From Amphibalanus amphitrite (Eukaryota; Arthropoda; Thecostraca; Balanomorpha; Balanidae): a DNA stretch of 64,000 nt. Under the pieces are notes generated by a model. It was not told where the DNA came from. It saw nothing but the letters and a program-made list of their open reading frames with translations, and did no database searches. Of this stretch, positions 3,428-64,000 are shown piece after piece. Numbering within the stretch: the first letter of the stretch is position 1; each line of letters opens with the position of its first letter. The stretch is from NCBI RefSeq assembly GCF_019059575.1, contig NW_024881612.1:744001-808000 (forward strand). Reading direction: 5' to 3'. The translations under genes were made by a program, and so were the position numbers.

Positions 3428-3650
3428 GTCAGTACCTATGTAAACTGACGTCAGTGAAGTCACCTATAGCGCGGCACTGCTGCGTCTCACATGCACCGTG
3501 AGCCTTACAAAAATCGATATCTCACCAAACGACGCGACGCGGCTCGGTGCCACAAGTGTTCCTCACAGACAAAAATCGATATGTGCCTACAGTAGGATGA
3601 GGCTCCCACCGGTAGCACAAAATACACATCCCACCACAATGCTGACTTAC

Positions 3651-3783
3651 CGCAGACACTCGATTTTGGAGAGCTTCTTGCCGGGTGGTTTACAGTAGGG
3701 TATTCTCTCGCGCAGCGCCTCGAACGCCTTGTTCATATCCCGCATACGTGTCCGCTCGCGGTCACAGGCGGTCTTTTTGTAGT
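3651..3783 (-). CDS. sage-like bHLH transcription factor, exon 2 (basic region, helix 1, loop)
   Basis: This 133-nt exon has a TTTCAG acceptor (intron side 3784-3789) and a GTAAGT donor (3650-3645). It reads in phase from exon 1 and encodes residues ~259-302: a basic region [12 protein letters not shown], helix 1 [11 protein letters not shown], a loop with [12 protein letters not shown], and the start of helix 2. The signature [12 protein letters not shown] with KPxGKKxSKIE is, from memory, that of arthropod Sage (salivary gland bHLH). Mesp-type factors are the nearest alternative. The rest of helix 2 must lie on a further exon; none is visible in 1-3640, which is transposon DNA, so the gene continues left of the window. 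As a class II bHLH it should bind E-boxes as a heterodimer with Daughterless/E-proteins in the nucleus. Confidence 0.8.
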
Positions 3784-4575
3784 CTGAAACGTCACCGATC
3801 GTCATCAGGGAGCGCTGGGCTGGCTCGTGCCGGGGTAGGTCACGCTGGGATGGGTCGCGCCGGGTCGTGGCGGGGCGAAACGCTATCACCTCATGAGACG
3901 GTCGATCGCGATCGCGACCGATTGCGGCCCCGCGCGGGAACTGATGGCGAGAGGGCCCGGCCGGCCGGCGCACAGCCGCATGTGAAACACATGTTTCTGT
4001 CACAGATGGTGGAACGAGCTGTCGGTGGCGGCTGGCGGCTGTGGGCCGGCCGGTAGGGGACACTCGGCCGACAAGGTGTGGTCCGTGACCTGACCCAGGG
4101 GACCGCTCCTGACACCACACGACGGCAGGCGGTGAATGAGGTGCGCTGCTCCACCGCGATACGTGATACTGGGCTGACTACGAAAACACTCGGGATAACA
4201 CTTTGTAGGACTATGCTACTGAAGGACAGAATGAAAAGCACATCGGCAGTGAAGAGTTGATTATTGAATATGCATTCTTTCAATTACAAGCATACAGTGA
4301 ACGTAATGCAAAATTGCAAACCAATGGACGTCTTTAAGTAGGAAGCTCACGAGTCATGCACAGCTGCAGGGGGTGGGTGGTGACAGCTGGTATGGTGTGT
4401 CACAACTAGTACAGCTGATGACGTACAACGCGACACAGAAATGGCATGCTTCTGACGTAAACTGTGAAGGCTATCGTGCAAGAAGTGATAGCTGTTAGTG
4501 AACACGCGGGCCGGCGCGGTGCGCGGCGCGGCGGTGGCAGCGGCGCTGCCGGCGTCATGGTCCCACCTGACTCAC

Positions 4576-5350
4576 TCATCGAGCTGCCCCGCCAGCCTCT
4601 GTTCTTGGAGGGCTTGGCGCCGGCGCCGGGCGGCGGCTCGGTGTGGGGCGTGGAGCGCCGGGTGCGGGGCGCCGGCGGCTGGGCCGCGCCGCCCGGCGTC
4701 ACCGCCAAACTCTGCGCGCCGCCGGCCACCGGGTAGCCGGCCAGGCCGGGCGGCGTCTCCATGTAGCCCAGCGGGCCGGGGGGAGGGTAGCCGCCGTACT
4801 GCTCTGCACACGGGCCGTACTGCGCCGGGTAGCCGGACCCCAGCGGGCCGTAGAAGGCCGCCGCGTCGGCCGGGTGCTCGTAGGCCCGCGTCGAGTCCAG
4901 ATCCGTGTAACTAGGCTCGTCGTAAACTGCGGGGTAGTAGGCCGGCATATTGTGCTCCCGCAGCATCTGCTCCTCCGGCGGAAACTCGGGCTGCACACCC
5001 AGAGGACCTCCGGACTCCGGAGCGGTGCTGGGCGCCGGAGTCGGGGCGCAGATCTCGGCCGTCTCCTCTTTGACCGGACAGTGGCTGGAGGGCTCGGTCG
5101 GGTCAGGTGACGGGCCGGGGGAGGTAGGCGAGGAAGTCAACTCTCCGCTGTCTGGCTCGGCGGCCGGCTCTGCGTCGTCCAGGTGTGGCGAGCTGCGGTG
5201 GCCAGGGGTGGGGTCCAGGCCAGTCGGCCACACCGACTCGCCCCCCGGCTGGCAGGCTGCCGGTGGTGTCGGCGCCGACGGCACGGTGGCCGCGGGCGAC
5301 TCCGACGACGTCATCTGGGGCAGCGTCAGGGGCAGCGTCAGAGCGGACAT
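4576..5350 (-). CDS. sage-like bHLH transcription factor, exon 1 (N-terminal region)
   Basis: The frame opens at ATG 5350, the first ATG after an in-frame TGA, and runs 258 codons to a GTGAGT donor (4575-4570). Splicing to 3783 restores the frame exactly (phase 1). The protein is low-complexity: Ser/Pro/Thr/Glu-rich to about residue 130, then Tyr/Pro/Gly-rich (motifs such as YGGYPPPGPLGYMETPPG), then a basic linker KPSKNRGWRG just before the bHLH. Such regions are usual for activation domains; no domain is recognised in it. Codons are strongly GC-rich at third positions, which also creates long spurious frames on the opposite strand. A hAT MITE starts 41 bp upstream of the ATG, so the promoter or 5' UTR must lie within or beyond it, or a short leader is used. 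Confidence 0.75.
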
Positions 5351-5391
5351 CAGGCGCGTGATGTAGCGTCAGGTCGAACATCAACATCAAG

Positions 5392-8539: not shown

Positions 8540-9600
8540 GTCATGAATTTTTGTGCATGCTTCTGGATCATCTGTAATTACATCAAAGGCTCGGCTCAAG
8601 AGTGTCCTGCCGACCAGCTTATGCCCAACCCTTTCTGTCCGCAGAACGTCGCCTGCGACTCCCGCACGCCGTTTGCCCCGGCCGTCCGTACTGGTCTTCG
8701 CGCTGCGAGCCGCGCTGGAGTTCGCGGCGGCGTCGTGGAGCTCCCATCGGGACGGCGTGTGATGCCCGCGTCGAGCTTATAAGCCGTGAGCTTCGATTGG
8801 CGGCTCACGCGGTCACCAGCTGTATGTACAGCCTCGGCCCCGACGACCCCGCTAATGGCCGAGACCGGCATACCCCCGGCATGGGTCCGCTGTCCGGCGC
8901 AGCGCTGGCCGCCCGCATGCTATGCTACTTTTGGCTGTATCGCTGCCCAGCGGGAGCGCGCTCCACGCTGCGGAAGAGGTACACGTTGCGACCCGACTGA
9001 GGAGTGAGGACTGCAACCGGATGGTGACACGTCGGCCTCTGCGCCCTGGCCGGGGCAGGCGTGACCGACGTCACAGTTGAGGAACGCCCAAACAAGACCA
9101 GCCCACCGTCGGAGCAGCATGGAAATATCATGTTCTGCCTGGACGTCGGACCCGGCGGCCGCAGTGCACCTGCACACGTGCGGAGAGGGGCGCTGGAGGC
9201 TACTCTGGAGCTTCTGCCATTCCGCGGCGCGACTGCTGGCAAAACGGCGGCGATTGAGGCGGTTGGGAACAGCTGCAGCAATGGTGATGGCGGTGATGGC
9301 GACATGGCGGTTTGGGACTTCATCTCAGCGCGGCCGTCGCCCAGGCGCCGCTGCGCCCGGCTGCTCAGCCACCTACCGGATGGCGGGGTGGCCCTTACGG
9401 CCCTCACGCCCGTTCGGTCTGCGGCCACGTTGTGGGGTGGCGGTCGCGGGGTTAGCGGCGTTGGACTTCGTCCTTTATCCAGACTGCACCGTACCATCTG
9501 AACGGATGGATCTGCCAAGAAAGATGACTTCCAAGGCGGCTATGAGGCGATCACAAAGCTTCACCAAGAGCTTCTCCTTCATGGGGCCGGCCGGCCGTTA
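8540..9600. other. GC-rich cargo block of the 5.7-kb element, coding status unclear
   Basis: This stretch is markedly GC-richer than the element around it. It has frames of 130-200 codons in several phases on both strands (for example plus 9061-9501 and minus 8925-9518), so frame length alone cannot pick a real one. I recognise no domain. The second copy (63280-64000) is nearly identical apart from point changes and a short deletion opposite about 9000-9007. The segment GGAGGCTACTCTGGAGCTTCT near 9195 recurs with one change near 13545 outside the element. Confidence 0.4.
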
Positions 9601-9881
9601 AGTCGCAACACCGGCTGCCGAGTGCCAACAGCTGCGTGCGCTGGCGCCGACGCGTTGTGGGCCGCGCTGCTGACGCCCAAGCTGCGATATCAACCATCTA
9701 TGAATAAGTGGCAGCGGTGGCGGCTTGTCAGTTGTTAACGTGCCTTAACAGACGTTGCGAATAGCCCGCGTTAGAATCGCATGGTTGGGAACACAACGCA
9801 AGTAAAAATGGGCTTCCTTGACGAACCTACTTTTTAAGCATTGTAGCCTTTGTAATTTTGGATGTTTTGCTGTAGATATTA

Positions 9882-17506: not shown

Positions 17507-18015
17507 TCACCATTTGAGGCACTTAAGCACTCCCTTAACCAGGCCGCACCCGCGGCATCCCTTAGGGCAGTGGGGACGCTGTGGACGCGGTCGGACAACC
17601 GGTCTAAGGCACCTAGGCACTCGGGTGCAGCCGAGTTTGCCGCAGACGCGGCGAAGACGACACACCTCGCCCCGACGGCAGCGGGGACGGCACCTCAGCT
17701 GCGGAGAGCGACGCTGACGGCGAGGGCGGCCGCTGGAGTTACGACGACGACGGTTACCGCTGGAGTTACGACGGCGGCGACGGTTGCCGCTAGTGTTACG
17801 ACGGCGGCGACTGGGGCCGCTGGAGCTGCGACGACGGCGACGGGTGTCCGGACGCGGACGGGGCCGGGGTCTGATGGACGTCGGGGACCAGCAGCGGCGC
17901 AGACAGCCAAGCTGGCAGCAGCTGGCTCCGTTCCTGCAGTCCAAGTTGCGCCGGCAGAGGCTTTTGACACTAGCTGGCTGGCAACTTTTGGTCAGCGGGC
18001 ATCGAGGCCGCGACA
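17507..18015 (-). CDS. Secreted arginine-rich WAP (crustin-like) protein, exon 2
   Basis: The exon starts after CCCTTTCCGTTTCAG, joins exon 1 in phase 1, and runs to TGA (17509-17507), completing a 190-residue precursor. Residues 27-63 hold eight cysteines in WAP (four-disulfide core) spacing: CP, C33, C42, then LDC48, CC54-55, C59, C63. Residues 70-127 are an extreme Arg/Ser/Asn region with four units of RRRR(R)N(S/T)SG type, several forming N-glycosylation sequons. Residues 130-157 add six cysteines (130, 134, 140, 146, 151, 157) and 171-187 four more, unlike any domain I can name. Crustins usually carry the WAP domain at the C-terminus, whereas here it is N-terminal with a cationic tail. 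An antimicrobial or protease-inhibitor role is inferred. AAATG|GTGAGC at the stop could also act as a donor, so further exons are not excluded. Confidence 0.75.
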
Positions 18016-18354
18016 CTGAAACGGAAAGGGTGATTTCAAGTCACCAGCATAGTATTAAAAGGTAGACATGTCTAAAAGTATGTATCCAATGGAAAAAAGT
18101 ACCCGGGAGATAACAGTTCGGGGCCTAATAATAATACTAATAATAAGTATTAGGCATCGCTCTGAGACTCATGTTGCGAAGTTGCCGCACGTGAGAATAA
18201 ATTACCGCATTCCTATACAATTTTTTGGACTTTTATTTAATTCAGAACTGTACCTGGAGTTCGTCAAATCAGTCAGCCTCTGTCAGTTTTACCGATGCGT
18301 TCTACGCACTTCCAAAAAGGAACTGTGATCTCTAATAGGGTCTCCAGTACGTAC

Positions 18355-18418
18355 CAAAGGTGGCCCCTGCCAGGGCCACCAGCGCGGCAAGCAGCGTCAG
18401 AGCCGCCAGCGGCCTCAT
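18355..18418 (-). CDS. Secreted arginine-rich WAP protein, exon 1 (signal peptide)
   Basis: ATG at 18418 opens MRPLAALTLLAALVALAGAT, a textbook signal peptide (Arg at position 2, long Leu/Ala core, small residues before cleavage around residues 18-20). A GTACGT donor follows at 18354-18349. The exon ends in phase 1 and joins exon 2 across a 339-nt intron to give a short mature N-terminus just before the WAP domain. Signal exon plus WAP exon is an arrangement common in crustacean crustin genes. A TATA box lies about 50 bp upstream of the ATG. Confidence 0.75.
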
Positions 18419-18462: not shown

Positions 18463-18473
18463 GGGTTATATCC
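18463..18473 (-). promoter_or_regulatory. TATA box of the WAP gene
   Basis: The minus strand reads GGGATATAACC here, about 50 nt upstream of the start codon. With a usual 25-30 nt spacing this gives a 5' UTR of roughly 20-25 nt. Context and spacing make it a plausible core promoter. Confidence 0.55.
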
Positions 18474-24060: not shown

Positions 24061-24386
24061 CTGCCAACATACAGACATAGACATAGACATATAGGCATAC
24101 CGACACACATACACACAGCCAGTCAACACTTTCCCTTTGTTTTGGTCAGCACTGCACAGCCGCACACTCAGTGGGTGGCCAGTATGTTTATGGGAACAAT
24201 CGCGTACATTGGCCTGAAAGCACGTTGTTCAATTAGCATGCACTTTCCCCTATATTCAGCCAGTGGTCCTTGCAAACCCACTAGCTGTAAGATAAACAAA
24301 AATATATACATACAATAACCCTTTCTCGAGTATCCCTCTAGGTATTACGTTCAGTAGTCTCGTAACTGGAATATTATGTTACTCAC

Positions 24387-24493
24387 GGTCTTGGTGTGCC
24401 TGTCTCAGCTGGGCGACGTCTGCTCCATGGCACAGCGAGTACAGACTCCGTCCCACTAGACTCTCCGAGGTAAAGTCCACGCACGGAGGCACC
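24387..24493 (-). CDS. trh: trachealess, PAS-B N-terminal exon
   Basis: It encodes VPPCVDFTSESLVGRSLYSL followed by CHGADVAQLRQAHQD. SLVxxSLYSLCH is characteristic of Trh/NPAS1/3 PAS-B. Splice sites are GATTTACAG and GTGAGT, with consistent phases on both sides. Confidence 0.92.
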
Positions 24494-24679
24494 CTGTAAA
24501 TCACACGCAAACGAAGGGTTTCAAAAGCCAAGGTCAAAAGGCGATTTAATTTCAATCTTTTGCTCCAATTGTTCTCCTTTTTGATAAAATAGTTTCTCGG
24601 CAAGAGCAAAGTAGGCCTTGTAACCTGACGTTTGACCTGGGTTCGTGACCTGACCTCTGACCTGAACTCGCGGACTGAC

Positions 24680-24873
24680 CTGGGCTCGCAGTGGACGATC
24701 CGCAGGTCGAATGTGAGCCGTGTGACGAACGAGTGGCCGTCCAGCCGCAGCTCGTGGACACCGGGCGGCGGCAGCGCCACGGCCAGGCCCACCAGGCCCA
24801 GTAGCCGGGTGGTGCTGCCGACTGAATCTGCAGGGTCGACGGCCGGCCGCAGGCGGCACTGCAGCTGCATTGC
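24680..24873 (-). CDS. trh: trachealess, PAS-A end to PAS-B start
   Basis: It begins AMQLQCRLRP after a GCCCCGCAG acceptor. It continues with GLVGLAVALPPPGVHELRL and FVTRLTFDLRIVHCEP, matching the Trh block LGMVALAIALPPPSVHEIRL..FDLRVAHCEPR. The donor is GTCAGT in phase 2. This block links the two PAS repeats used for dimerisation with Tango/ARNT. Confidence 0.93.
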
Positions 24874-25189
24874 CTGCGGGGCGGCAGGGCAACAGGTCAG
24901 TCGGCAGGTCAACCAGCCTGGTGGCGGATCGGCGGGTCGACAGGACGAATGGCTACGGTAGGTCGGCACCCAAACCGACAGGTCAGGAAAGGGTCATGGG
25001 GATTTCAGTCATCGTATCATTATTACGATGAAACAGATCCCGCATACATCACTGAAATTGAATGACAGTGAGAACCCTACAGATCAAAGTTTCACAGCCT
25101 CCACTCTCCCAAAACTGCTTTTAAAATATAAAAGCGCATTTCACACAGCGGCTCGTCTGAAGCGTCGTGTTATGAACGATGTGACTAAC

Positions 25190-33779: not shown

Positions 33780-33839
33780 TTAAGATTTTTTTTTCAAAAT
33801 CTTGAGATGTCCCTAATGAAGCAACTTCTTTCTTAATTG

Positions 33840-34850
33840 ACTTCAATTTTTTCGCCAGTCTTTAAGTTTCTCAGTGCTTGTGCGAGGATCATATTAAAGC
33901 ATTTTGACACAGCTTTTACACAGCCGCTCTGTCCAGGCAGAAACCGCTGCAACATCTGTAAGAGTGGTTTCGAAGGACAGTGTACTGTAAAGAATGTTGT
34001 GTACTCGTTACAATGCAAGGCATGTATGGAAAATGGTGACATGACGGAGTATGTGGGGGAAACCAAGAGACCCATACGGTTGAGGTTCAATGAGCATTAC
34101 CGGGATATCGCCAACAGAAAAGAGGACACGCCTATGGGTGACCACTTTACAGAGTGCCATCCTGGCATTGGCCTCACTCCATCCCCCATCGAGGCTAGAA
34201 TTCTGTATAGGGCCAAAGATCACCCAGATCGAAAGATTGCGGAGTCGATCTTTATCAGGAATCGAAAGCCTGTCCTCAATTCGAACGTGACCTCATGGCC
34301 GATCATGTGATGAGCCACATTTGTGACACTCATGAAGATATATATAATGAATATGTATGCGCGTACTCATGAGCTAATATGTGTTTGTGTGTGTGTTTTT
34401 GTTCGCATTGTGATTTTGTGATGTTTCACCATGGGGTGTGACATGAATGTTAAAAGAATATTAGCGTTGGCTATTTGACCTTAGGCTATCGTGATATTGA
34501 TATCAGTAGAGATAGGCAGGTTGATTGCGAATGTTTTTTTTTTTAATAAGCTTTTAACAATGCATGTAAGCAATAGCCTCAAATTATTGGTCGAGGTATT
34601 ATAAAGTGATATATTTTTGTTGGTTGGATGTGTAACACTTTATTTAATTTTTAGGTCAAACATGGTGTTAGATCTTGAAAACGGTTGAACCTGATTGTAC
34701 TATTTGCTCGAGAATTTGCGCGCAAAAATATTTGGCGGGAAATATTTTGCAATGAGTTATGCAGTCAAAGATTGGATTTTTATCGTGACATTTTTAGCTT
34801 TGTATTCTGATGAAGAGCTGTGCTCGAAATTATTAATAAACAAGTGTTTT
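33840..34850 (+). mobile_element. Penelope-like element fragment, plus strand
   Basis: The 3' part of a Penelope-like retroelement. A GIY-YIG endonuclease frame ends at 34310, followed by an AT-rich tail with CTGATGAAGAGCTGTGCTCG at about 34808 and AATAAA at about 34838, comparable to the CTGACGAAGG motif of the fragment at 16 kb. TTTCGCCAGTCTT with downstream similarity occurs at both 33849 and 34909, a possible remnant of the direct (pseudo-LTR) repeats of this class. The reverse transcriptase is absent. Confidence 0.6.
33900..34310 (+). pseudogene. GIY-YIG endonuclease domain of a Penelope-like element (truncated)
   Basis: About 135 residues. First a Cys pair CNICKSGFEGQC, then the GIY-YIG-type core VVYSLQCKAC..EYVGET, the conserved R and H in RPIRLRFNEHYRD, a TPMGDHFTECH segment, the catalytic-type Glu in IAESIFI, and the final PVLNSN. 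A Cys-rich knuckle ahead of a GIY-YIG domain is the C-terminal layout of Penelope-like proteins. The long open frame begins at a non-ATG position after stops, so this is a 5'-truncated copy, not an independent gene. The domain itself carries no stop codon, which suggests a fairly recent insertion. Confidence 0.75.
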
Positions 34851-61507: not shown

Positions 61508-64000
61508 TGGCCGTTTTCACGACGGAATAGCAGGCATCTATTTAATCCCCATTTAATCCTTTAGTTCCTCAGGAATTTTAGTAGTTCTTTTTAGTAGGTT
61601 CCCCAGCTTTCGAATGAATGGTGCGTTAGTTTGCTATTTTTCTATTAAATATCACATCGATTTACTTTATCTAAGGATTATCACTAATATCAACATAAAG
61701 CGTAAGCACAATTATAAAATTATGAAATTATTAAATACTAGTACAATAGTTAAAAAAAGATACTGAGTTGCCAGGCTGCAAAGAATATATTCATTTATGG
61801 CGCACGACAGACATTTAGAAAGCAGCGCCCTGTTTTATTGCACGCTGCTAGCCGCTTCCATTGGGTTTTGCAGGCCGACGTCATTGGTCGTTACACGTAT
61901 GATGTCACGCGACTTGTGGCCTGTCACGGCTCTTTAATGATCTCCACTAAATGAATGCAACAATGGCCTTTTAAGTTGATCTCTGTGGCCATCTGTCTAT
62001 GGAGCGACCAATATGAAAGTTGGGTGAATTTACCGGGGTTACATGACTAGGAGCAAGCAAATGTGTATCAGGAATGGATTTAGGTGGAGAATTGCGCTGG
62101 ACCATGAGTGCTCGAGCGCTCCCAATTCCACGCCGGTTTGGCTTTGGAGCCGAGACAGACGATGCGGGTCAAGGTCACCGCTGGGGTAACGGTGGATTGG
62201 CTGCGCCCGAGCACCCGTAACGCGGCACAATTCTCGATCTATGGATTTTCCTATTCGCTCAGCATTGTGATAGGCGTTCGTAATAGCATTTACTCTGCTC
62301 ATGTACCTATCCCCGGTTATTTAAAAGAAGTTTTTGTGGGGGAATATCACGGCTTTAGGTACTCGGTGGCCCTATTCACGACTTTCAAAGAATGCTCCGA
62401 TAACTAAACACCGCACAGACCTACTGCATTAGTGAATCTGACAGAAGGTCTGTGGAATTACATCCCCCTCACCACACCCCTAAAAACTCATCCAGTGTCC
62501 AAAACCACTTTTATCGACTCGCAAAAAAAACACGCACACACACATACACACACAAAGCATGGGGCATGTCAGCTCTCAGTTCATTTATCATTGTCTTTAC
62601 CATGGTTCAATTGCATTGCGCGATTTAAAGCACGTGAGTGCCTATATAGTATATATGTAGAAAATAATATCTACAGCAAAACATCCAAAATTACAAAGGC
62701 TACAATGCTTAAAAAGTAGGTTCATCAAGGAATCCCATTTTTACTTGCGTTGTGTTCCCAACCATGCGATTCCAACGCGGGCTATTCGCAACGTCTGTTA
62801 AGGCACGTTAACAACTGACAAGCCGCCACCGCTGCCACTTATTCATAGATGGTTGATATCACAGCTTGGGCGTCAGCAGCGCGGCCCACAACGCGTCGGC
62901 GCCAGCGCACGCAGCTGTTGGCACTCGGCAGCCGGTGTTGCGACTTAACGGCCGGCCGGCCCCATGAAGGAGAAGCTCTTGGTGAAGCTTTGTGATCGCC
63001 TCATAGCCGCCTTGGATGTCATCTTTCTTGGCAGATCCATCCGTTCAGATGGTACGGTGCAGTCTGGATAAAGGACGAAGTCCAACGCCGCTAACCCCGC
63101 GACCGCCACCCCACAACGTGGCCGCAGACCGAACGGGCGTGAGGGCCGTAAGGGCCACCCCGCCATCCGGTAGGTGGCTGAGCATCCGGGCGCAGCGGCG
63201 CCTGGGCGGCGGCCGCGCTGAGATGAAGTCCCAAACCGCCATGTCGCCATCACCGCCATCACCATTGCTGCAGCTGTTCCCAACCGCCTCAATCGCCGCC
63301 GTTTTGCCAGCAGTCGCGCCGCGGAATGGCAGAAGCTCCAGAGTAGCCTCCAGCGCCCCTCTCCGCACGTGTGCAGGTGCACTGCGGCCGCCGGGTCCGA
63401 CGTCCAGGCAGAACATGATATTTCCATGCTGCTCCGACGGTGGGCTGGTCTTGTTTGGGCGTTCCTCCACTGTGACGTCGGTCACGCCTGCCCCGGCCAG
63501 GGCGCAGAGGCCGACGTGTCACCATCCGGTTGCAGTCCTCAGTCGGGTCGCAGCGTGTACCTCTTCCGCAGCGTGGAGCGCGCTCCCGCTGGGCAGCGAT
63601 ACAGCCAAAAGTAGCATAGCATGCGGGCGGCCAGCGCTGCGCCGGACAGCGGACCCATGCCGGGGGTATGCCGGTCTCGGCCATTAGCGGGGTCGTCGGG
63701 GCCGAGGCTGTACATACAGCTGGTGACCGCGTGAGCCGCCAATCGAAGCTCACGGCTTATAAGCTCGACGCGGGCATCACACGCCGTCCCGATGGGATCT
63801 CCACGACGCCGCCGCGAACTCCAGCGCGGCTCGCAGCGCGAAGACCAGTACGGACGGCCGGGGCAAACGGCGTGCGGGAGTCGCAGGCGACGTTCTGCGG
63901 ACAGAAAGGGTTGGGCATAAGCTGGTCGGCAGGACACTCTTGAGCCGAGCCTTTGATGTAATTACAGATGATCCAGAAGCATGCACAAAAATTCATGACA
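61508..64000. mobile_element. 5.7-kb terminal-inverted-repeat element, copy B (inverted, cut by window edge)
   Basis: It begins with TGGCCGTTTTCACGACGGAA and reads as the reverse complement of 12692 back to about 8540, almost base for base. It skips exactly the nested insertion 9882-11506 and one AGATATTA. The other end should lie about 1.6 kb past the window. Differences from copy A include a shorter CA/T microsatellite (62523-62556), scattered substitutions and a short deletion. Confidence 0.85.

Follow-up and report, generated by a model that had tools for sequence, protein, structure and literature searches.

The 64,000-nucleotide stretch of Amphibalanus amphitrite DNA analysed here (the window; G000:C115:744001-808000 in the searched assembly of 807.55 Mb and 2644 contigs) carries on its minus strand a gene of two exons that, on spliced translation of the window letters, join in frame to encode a precursor of 190 amino acids (Table 1). 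The signal-peptide exon and the phase-matched second exon described in an earlier note on this DNA were verified with respect to their coordinates, the intron and its phase. The first base of the TATAA lies 28 nt 5' of the A in an initiator-like TCAC (18444-18441) and, read by eye, the TATA-like element, the initiator-like site and the AATAAA are positioned as a short gene would require. A tRNA scan and an Rfam scan (gathering threshold) of the window yielded no match.

Table 1. Coordinates of the gene, of its parts and of the other features of the window
Feature	Position	Strand	Basis or remark
TATA-like element (TATAA)	18466..18470	-	spotted by eye, letters verified
Exon 1: ATG and signal peptide, 21 codons, MRPLAALTLLAALVALAGATF, plus one base	18355..18418	-	
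Intron, phase 1, GTACGT...TTTCAG (GT-AG)	18016..18354	-	letters verified
Exon 2: mature protein and TGA stop	17507..18015	-	
WAP-type eight-cysteine core, precursor residues 27-63	17891..18001	-	cysteine pattern
Pro/Arg linker and R4-5-N-[ST]-S-G repeats, residues 67-127	17699..17881	-	
Tail cluster 1, six Cys, residues 130-157	17609..17692	-	
Tail cluster 2, four Cys, residues 171-187	17519..17569	-	
Polyadenylation signal AATAAA	17194..17199	-	by eye, letters verified; kept in second copy
468-aa open frame, 7tm chemosensory receptors; insect-type gustatory/odorant-receptor-like gene in a barnacle genome	57753..59159	+	PF08395 E 6e-12, PF02949 E 3e-7
bHLH domain exon	3647..4177	-	PF00010, E 1.4e-12
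320-aa open frame near the bHLH exon	4406..5368	-	no Pfam match
Weak PAS_11, perhaps from a bHLH-PAS gene exon	24379..24993	-	23.6 bits, cut-off 25
Weak GIY-YIG, possibly a retroelement endonuclease	33837..34310	+	17.6 bits, cut-off 22.6
Near-identical long open frames, a dispersed inverted duplicate ~54 kb apart	8578..9601 and 62945..63961	opposite	

Second copy and conservation of the gene

A search of the assembly with the precursor at E <= 0.001 returned two places, the window gene itself and C1430:104167-104685, which is 93% identical and has no internal stop. This second copy encodes 188 amino acids with 18 cysteines and four N-glycosylation sequons, and its start codon, splice sites and reading frame are preserved. 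The earlier note had allowed that the frame might prove to be broken in a close relative; in the second copy of the same assembly, where we examined it, the frame is intact. The 9.9 kb around the second copy (L003) align inverted to window positions 22,381-12,689 in blocks of 82-93% identity with gaps between them, the copies being largely collinear; the last 270 bases correspond to positions 6,958-6,678 instead, and a small number of short repeat matches break the order. Because many WAP matches in this genome have an equal-scoring twin on a second contig (as in the pairs C118/C604, C50/C1849 and C191/C265), the second copy is explained most simply, and probably correctly, as the other haplotype, with a segmental duplication as the less likely alternative. 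In another barnacle, Balanus improvisus, very high between-allele diversity is reported in the available part of PMC8270832.

The substitutions per compared site between the window and the second copy, which are two copies only with few changes between them, amount to 114/927 in the upstream DNA (19500-18500), 1/54 from TATA to ATG (18472-18419), 1/64 in exon 1, 44/316 in the intron, where the splice sites are kept, 1/131 in the WAP part of exon 2 (18015-17885), 15/174 with 6 additional gap columns in the arginine-rich part (17884-17705), 5/198 in the tail (17704-17507), 16/299 in the 3'UTR and 35/340 further downstream. The exons outside the arginine-rich part (7/393) are thereby distinguished from the intron with a Fisher p of 2e-10 and from the 3'UTR with p = 0.017. 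Five of the seven changes within residues 1-66 and 128-190 fall on third codon positions, with one each on first and second positions, and five of the seven are synonymous (dS 0.050, dN 0.007; synonymous versus non-synonymous sites, p = 0.017). For residues 67-127, where the alignment is uncertain and to which the Ser-to-Pro replacement at residue 68 is assigned, dS is 0.181 and dN 0.110. Since the second copy is intact and the exons differ far less than the intron, the two-exon gene is, as judged by this comparison, real, conserved and coding, and not a chance frame.

Domains of the predicted precursor

The precursor (21,781 Da) contains 50 Arg, 7 Lys and 3 acidic residues, with a predicted charge of about +53 at pH 7, and a direct count bears out the 18 cysteines of the earlier note: eight in WAP order, followed by ten in two clusters of 6 + 4. 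By rule of thumb (not SignalP) its N-terminus offers a hydrophobic core as well as A-x-A sites, and the -3/-1 rule puts the A-x-A cleavage options after residue 17 or 19, instead of after residue 21 as had been proposed. The putatively secreted product of the earlier note retains its signal-peptide-like start. A search of PDB sequences with the precursor gave a single match (E 5.2), Arg-rich and unrelated; two AlphaFold models built without an alignment were of poor quality, with a mean pLDDT of 48.7 and of 67.3, and the latter, when used in fold searches, retrieved no WAP structure.

The eight cysteines of the core follow the WAP order C-C-C-x5-C-x5-CC-x3-C-x3-C. The loose WAP cysteine pattern has one match across the six frames of the window, which is this core, and arises in 31 of 200,000 shuffles of the segment. 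With the Pfam WAP model (PF00095) the precursor scores 14.7 bits and the segment alone 19.7 bits (E 0.0011), both below the curated cut-off of 20.8 bits, and the gene is absent among the matches listed in a genome-wide PF00095 search (206 candidates, 150 scored). The N-terminal WAP domain of the earlier note therefore stands in its canonical order of eight cysteines, while its Pfam score falls just under the cut-off. We also used a profile of 22 WAP sequences caught by a cysteine pattern in the loci retrieved from the genome, from which the gene itself was excluded and cysteine-repeat frames (VCCV, ACCV) were dropped, and which includes some near-identical twins and covers part of the WAP set of the genome. 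On this profile the segment scores 18.3 bits, a value reached by 0 of 1000 full shuffles and by 20 of 1000 shuffles with the cysteines fixed (15 of 1000 Cys-fixed shuffles are as high when bias correction is omitted). Against the assembly at E <= 10 the segment has nine other matches of 34-44% identity, eight of them overlapping PF00095 matches; the best has 41% identity and E 0.042. We call the core a divergent WAP domain, mainly on account of its cysteine order.

The DNA of the arginine array is a 30-bp tandem repeat. Each copy of the gene has four repeat units, which differ between the copies in composition and order, with a net difference of two residues, in frame. Of the sequon-bearing R4-5-N-[ST]-S-G repeats described earlier, the repeats and three sequons (n=3: 95, 105, 114) are found in the window copy, and one of its four units is devoid of Asn. 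The units differ by copy and the flanks only at 1/131 and 5/198 sites, so the array changes in frame between two domains that are nearly fixed. A codon pattern for the units (CGN x4, AAY, WSN, WSN, GGN, that is RRRRN[ST]SG-like codons with the AGR arginine codons left out) has ten matches in the assembly: three here, four in the twin and three single ones elsewhere, one of which codes Cys at the second Ser position or similar, so that not all of them are true units; the reversed control of the pattern gave four matches. As the other matches are single, a clustered array occurs, at the level of this AGR-free pattern, only at the gene and its twin. Among the top-ranked matches in open-access full text we found no WAP protein in which the domain is followed by an array of arginine repeats, and within the open-access literature searched the array between WAP and tail is the part for which no precedent was found.

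Pfam assigned no family to the tail, and the search of the assembly with it at E <= 10 gave seven matches, of which the five beyond the gene and its twin have E >= 1.47, with no clear other copy. Several loci of the genome show, behind their WAP domains, six cysteines arranged in a way similar to residues 130-157. In the triple-WAP proteins of contigs C905 and C118/C604 (L011-L014), a cluster C-x(2,3)-C-x2-G-x2-C-x5-C...P-x-C that follows the WAP domains resembles residues 130-157, although these proteins, unlike our gene, have three WAP domains and no arginine array. The full six-cysteine module pattern, which was written after seeing the target, arises in 3 of 200,000 shuffles of the tail, and the cysteine spacing alone in 175. 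On a profile of eight module sequences, however, the bias-corrected score of the tail is reached by 493 of 1000 full and 627 of 1000 Cys-fixed shuffles, and the score without bias correction by 64 and 169 of 1000, respectively. Because the profile does not separate the tail from its shuffles, homology between the two is not established, and the likeness does no more than suggest a tail copied from the triple-WAP module. A degenerate second WAP domain at residues 130-157, devoid of C1 and C6, was also considered and rejected: it scores -0.1 bits on the 22-WAP profile, which 318 of 1000 full and 300 of 1000 Cys-fixed shuffles match, and without bias correction 7.9 bits, with 125 and 102 of 1000 as high.

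Possible functions of the protein

That the gene encodes a crustin-like, polycationic secreted defence protein is the most likely of the readings, and one that we hold at an even balance of belief and doubt. The disulfide-rich WAP core would provide a stable scaffold, and the arginine repeats together with the basic tail would attach to negatively charged microbial surfaces (LPS, teichoic acid, membrane) or to other polyanions. Such binding would concentrate the protein at its target, where it may act in a permeabilising or agglutinating manner, as reported for crustins with a post-WAP tail. Expression, secretion, antimicrobial action and the role of the repeats are all what we infer from the sequence. 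For the defence reading speak the predicted charge and two precedents: PpCrus-SWD1, with its N-terminal WAP and ten-cysteine tail, and the post-WAP region of Crus2 are reported to act on bacteria (PMC11678330, PMC9223358). Against it speak the sub-cut-off Pfam score of the WAP domain, the absence of the gene from the genome WAP listing and the poor models. The nucleic-acid role that had also been considered receives no support from PpCrus-SWD1, since that protein is reported, in the available part of PMC11678330, not to bind plasmid DNA.

A rather unlikely alternative is that the product is a proprotein, in which the R4-5 runs would serve as furin-type sites (R-x-[KR]-R) and cleavage would release a WAP peptide and a C-terminal Cys-rich peptide, the repeats being expendable linkers. 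There are ten such sites in the window copy and nine in the second copy, of which eight and seven, respectively, start before residue 125, and the greater variation of the arginine-rich part compared with its flanks would also be in line with expendable linkers. The furin pattern, however, fits almost any arginine-rich stretch, and the sequons within the repeats could shield the sites.

We consider it unlikely that the gene encodes an adhesive, cuticle or shell-matrix protein, which would bind mineral, oxide or acidic polymers and use the WAP domain as a scaffold or for local protease control. The available parts of the sources describe WAP proteins in barnacle adhesive, four in A. amphitrite and nine in P. 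pollicipes (PMC8371367), list AAwap-1 and AAwap-2 in cement (PMC5099703) and report a five-WAP-domain protein in the shell of A. amphitrite (PMC4519255). AAwap-2, at 22,181 Da (available part of PMC5099703), is near in mass to our precursor, but the two were compared by mass alone and nearness in mass is weak evidence. The best match given there for AAwap-2, moreover, a shrimp single-WAP protein at 4E-15, looks too strong for the divergent WAP domain found here.

The protein is very improbable as a canonical WAP serine-protease inhibitor of the SLPI/elafin type. It has the cysteine order of WAP domains, and phmmer gave weak antileukoproteinase matches (E 1.2 and 1.5), which ranked below two unrelated Nab2 proteins (E 0.27 and 0.35), but the second cysteine of the WAP domain is followed by Gln-Pro. 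By elafin placement we take this Pro to be at the expected P1' position, where it should hinder canonical inhibition.

That the locus is not a gene but a chance open frame across a GC-rich minisatellite can hardly be right. The 30-bp repeat would agree with it, and so would an open antisense frame of 239 aa, which in the second copy runs across exon 2 for 191 aa without a stop. But conservation tracks the exons, and five of the seven changes outside the arginine-rich part fall on minus-strand third positions. The second copy also preserves the core promoter, the splice sites and the polyadenylation signal. Of the two strands, the minus strand is thus favoured over the antisense frame, by the bias towards third positions as well as by the evidence from signal, splicing and promoter.

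Beyond the defence reading, we offer the more doubtful speculation that a crustin-like protein gained a variable, sequon-bearing arginine array of near protamine-like density within the secretory pathway, and became either an adjustable binder of polyanions, be it on microbial surfaces, in extracellular DNA or on mineral, or a proprotein that dismantles itself. The variable array between near-invariant disulfide domains may serve as a natural test of charge density versus WAP core in crustin-like target binding.

Comparison with crustins and other WAP proteins

The WAP set of this genome is large, with at least 150 matches when twin contigs are counted apart. On the contig pairs C263/C756, C50/C1849 and C191/C265 the WAP matches are numerous and clustered, which points to a large expansion of WAP genes. 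Large open frames at L011-L014 and L040 (C905, C118, C604) carry three WAP domains and other cysteine modules, and C905 has two inverted triple-WAP copies ~16 kb apart. The AaCrus1 peptide, known from A. amphitrite by mass spectrometry (available part of PMC8877177), matches the assembly at E 3e-6, and 20 of its 32 residues (GETHATSVQNSTGDGQQTNR) are exact in L074 and L075, with the match on C1656 lying less than 2 kb from crustin-type WAP exons, as would be expected of DNA from A. amphitrite or a close relative. The AaCrus1-like sequences of these loci, on C1656 and C968, show two matches per contig in opposite orientation.

Crustin types I-VII are described with a C-terminal WAP domain in the available part of PMC11678330. 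Our gene shares with crustins the signal peptide (by rule of thumb), the cationic character and the crustacean origin, but its WAP domain occupies residues 27-63 of 190 and is thus not C-terminal. Type III crustins, like our gene, combine a single WAP domain with a Pro/Arg-rich region (available parts of PMC9223358 and PMC9305162), although the scheme in PMC11678330, as far as it was available, places their WAP domain C-terminally and the variable region N-terminally, without a ten-cysteine tail. In type Ib crustins a long bacteria-binding region follows the WAP domain, in a position like that of the post-WAP part of our gene, and in Crus2 of Rimicaris it binds bacteria and improves killing; these crustins differ in having the type I N-terminal cysteines ahead of the WAP domain and a disordered post-WAP region that is neither Cys-rich nor arginine-repeat in the available part of the source (PMC9223358). 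The available parts of PMC12195476, PMC9435603 and PMC7177777 contain nothing decisive for the gene.

PpCrus-SWD1 of Pollicipes pollicipes (XP_037090548.1; 138 aa, pI 8.10) consists, according to the available part of PMC11678330, of a signal peptide, an N-terminal WAP domain (Cys 33-73) and a ten-cysteine C-terminal segment. It is reported there to bind LPS, LTA and PGN, to damage membranes, to inhibit bacteria, and to inhibit alkaline but not neutral protease activity. Searched with one printed peptide from its tail, the genome shows two unconvincing matches, one at E 0.261 that contains two stops and one at E 5.82, neither of them our gene. As candidates for its ortholog in this genome, L042, whose inspected frames are unlike the module, and L041, where no frame passed the filter, were rejected. 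The signal peptide, the eight-cysteine N-terminal WAP domain, the ten-cysteine tail and the barnacle origin are shared by PpCrus-SWD1 and our gene. The WAP cysteine spacings differ, however (x10 and x7 versus x5 and x8), as do the reported positions of the tail cysteines, and, unlike in our gene, no arginine repeat is described in the available part of the source. In the light of PpCrus-SWD1 and of the post-WAP region of type Ib crustins (available parts of PMC11678330 and PMC9223358), the earlier view that this order of domains is without precedent has to be given up. The same holds for the notion that known crustins all end in the WAP domain, for proteins of both kinds are called crustins as well, and our gene and PpCrus-SWD1 present two differently built barnacle cases against that rule.
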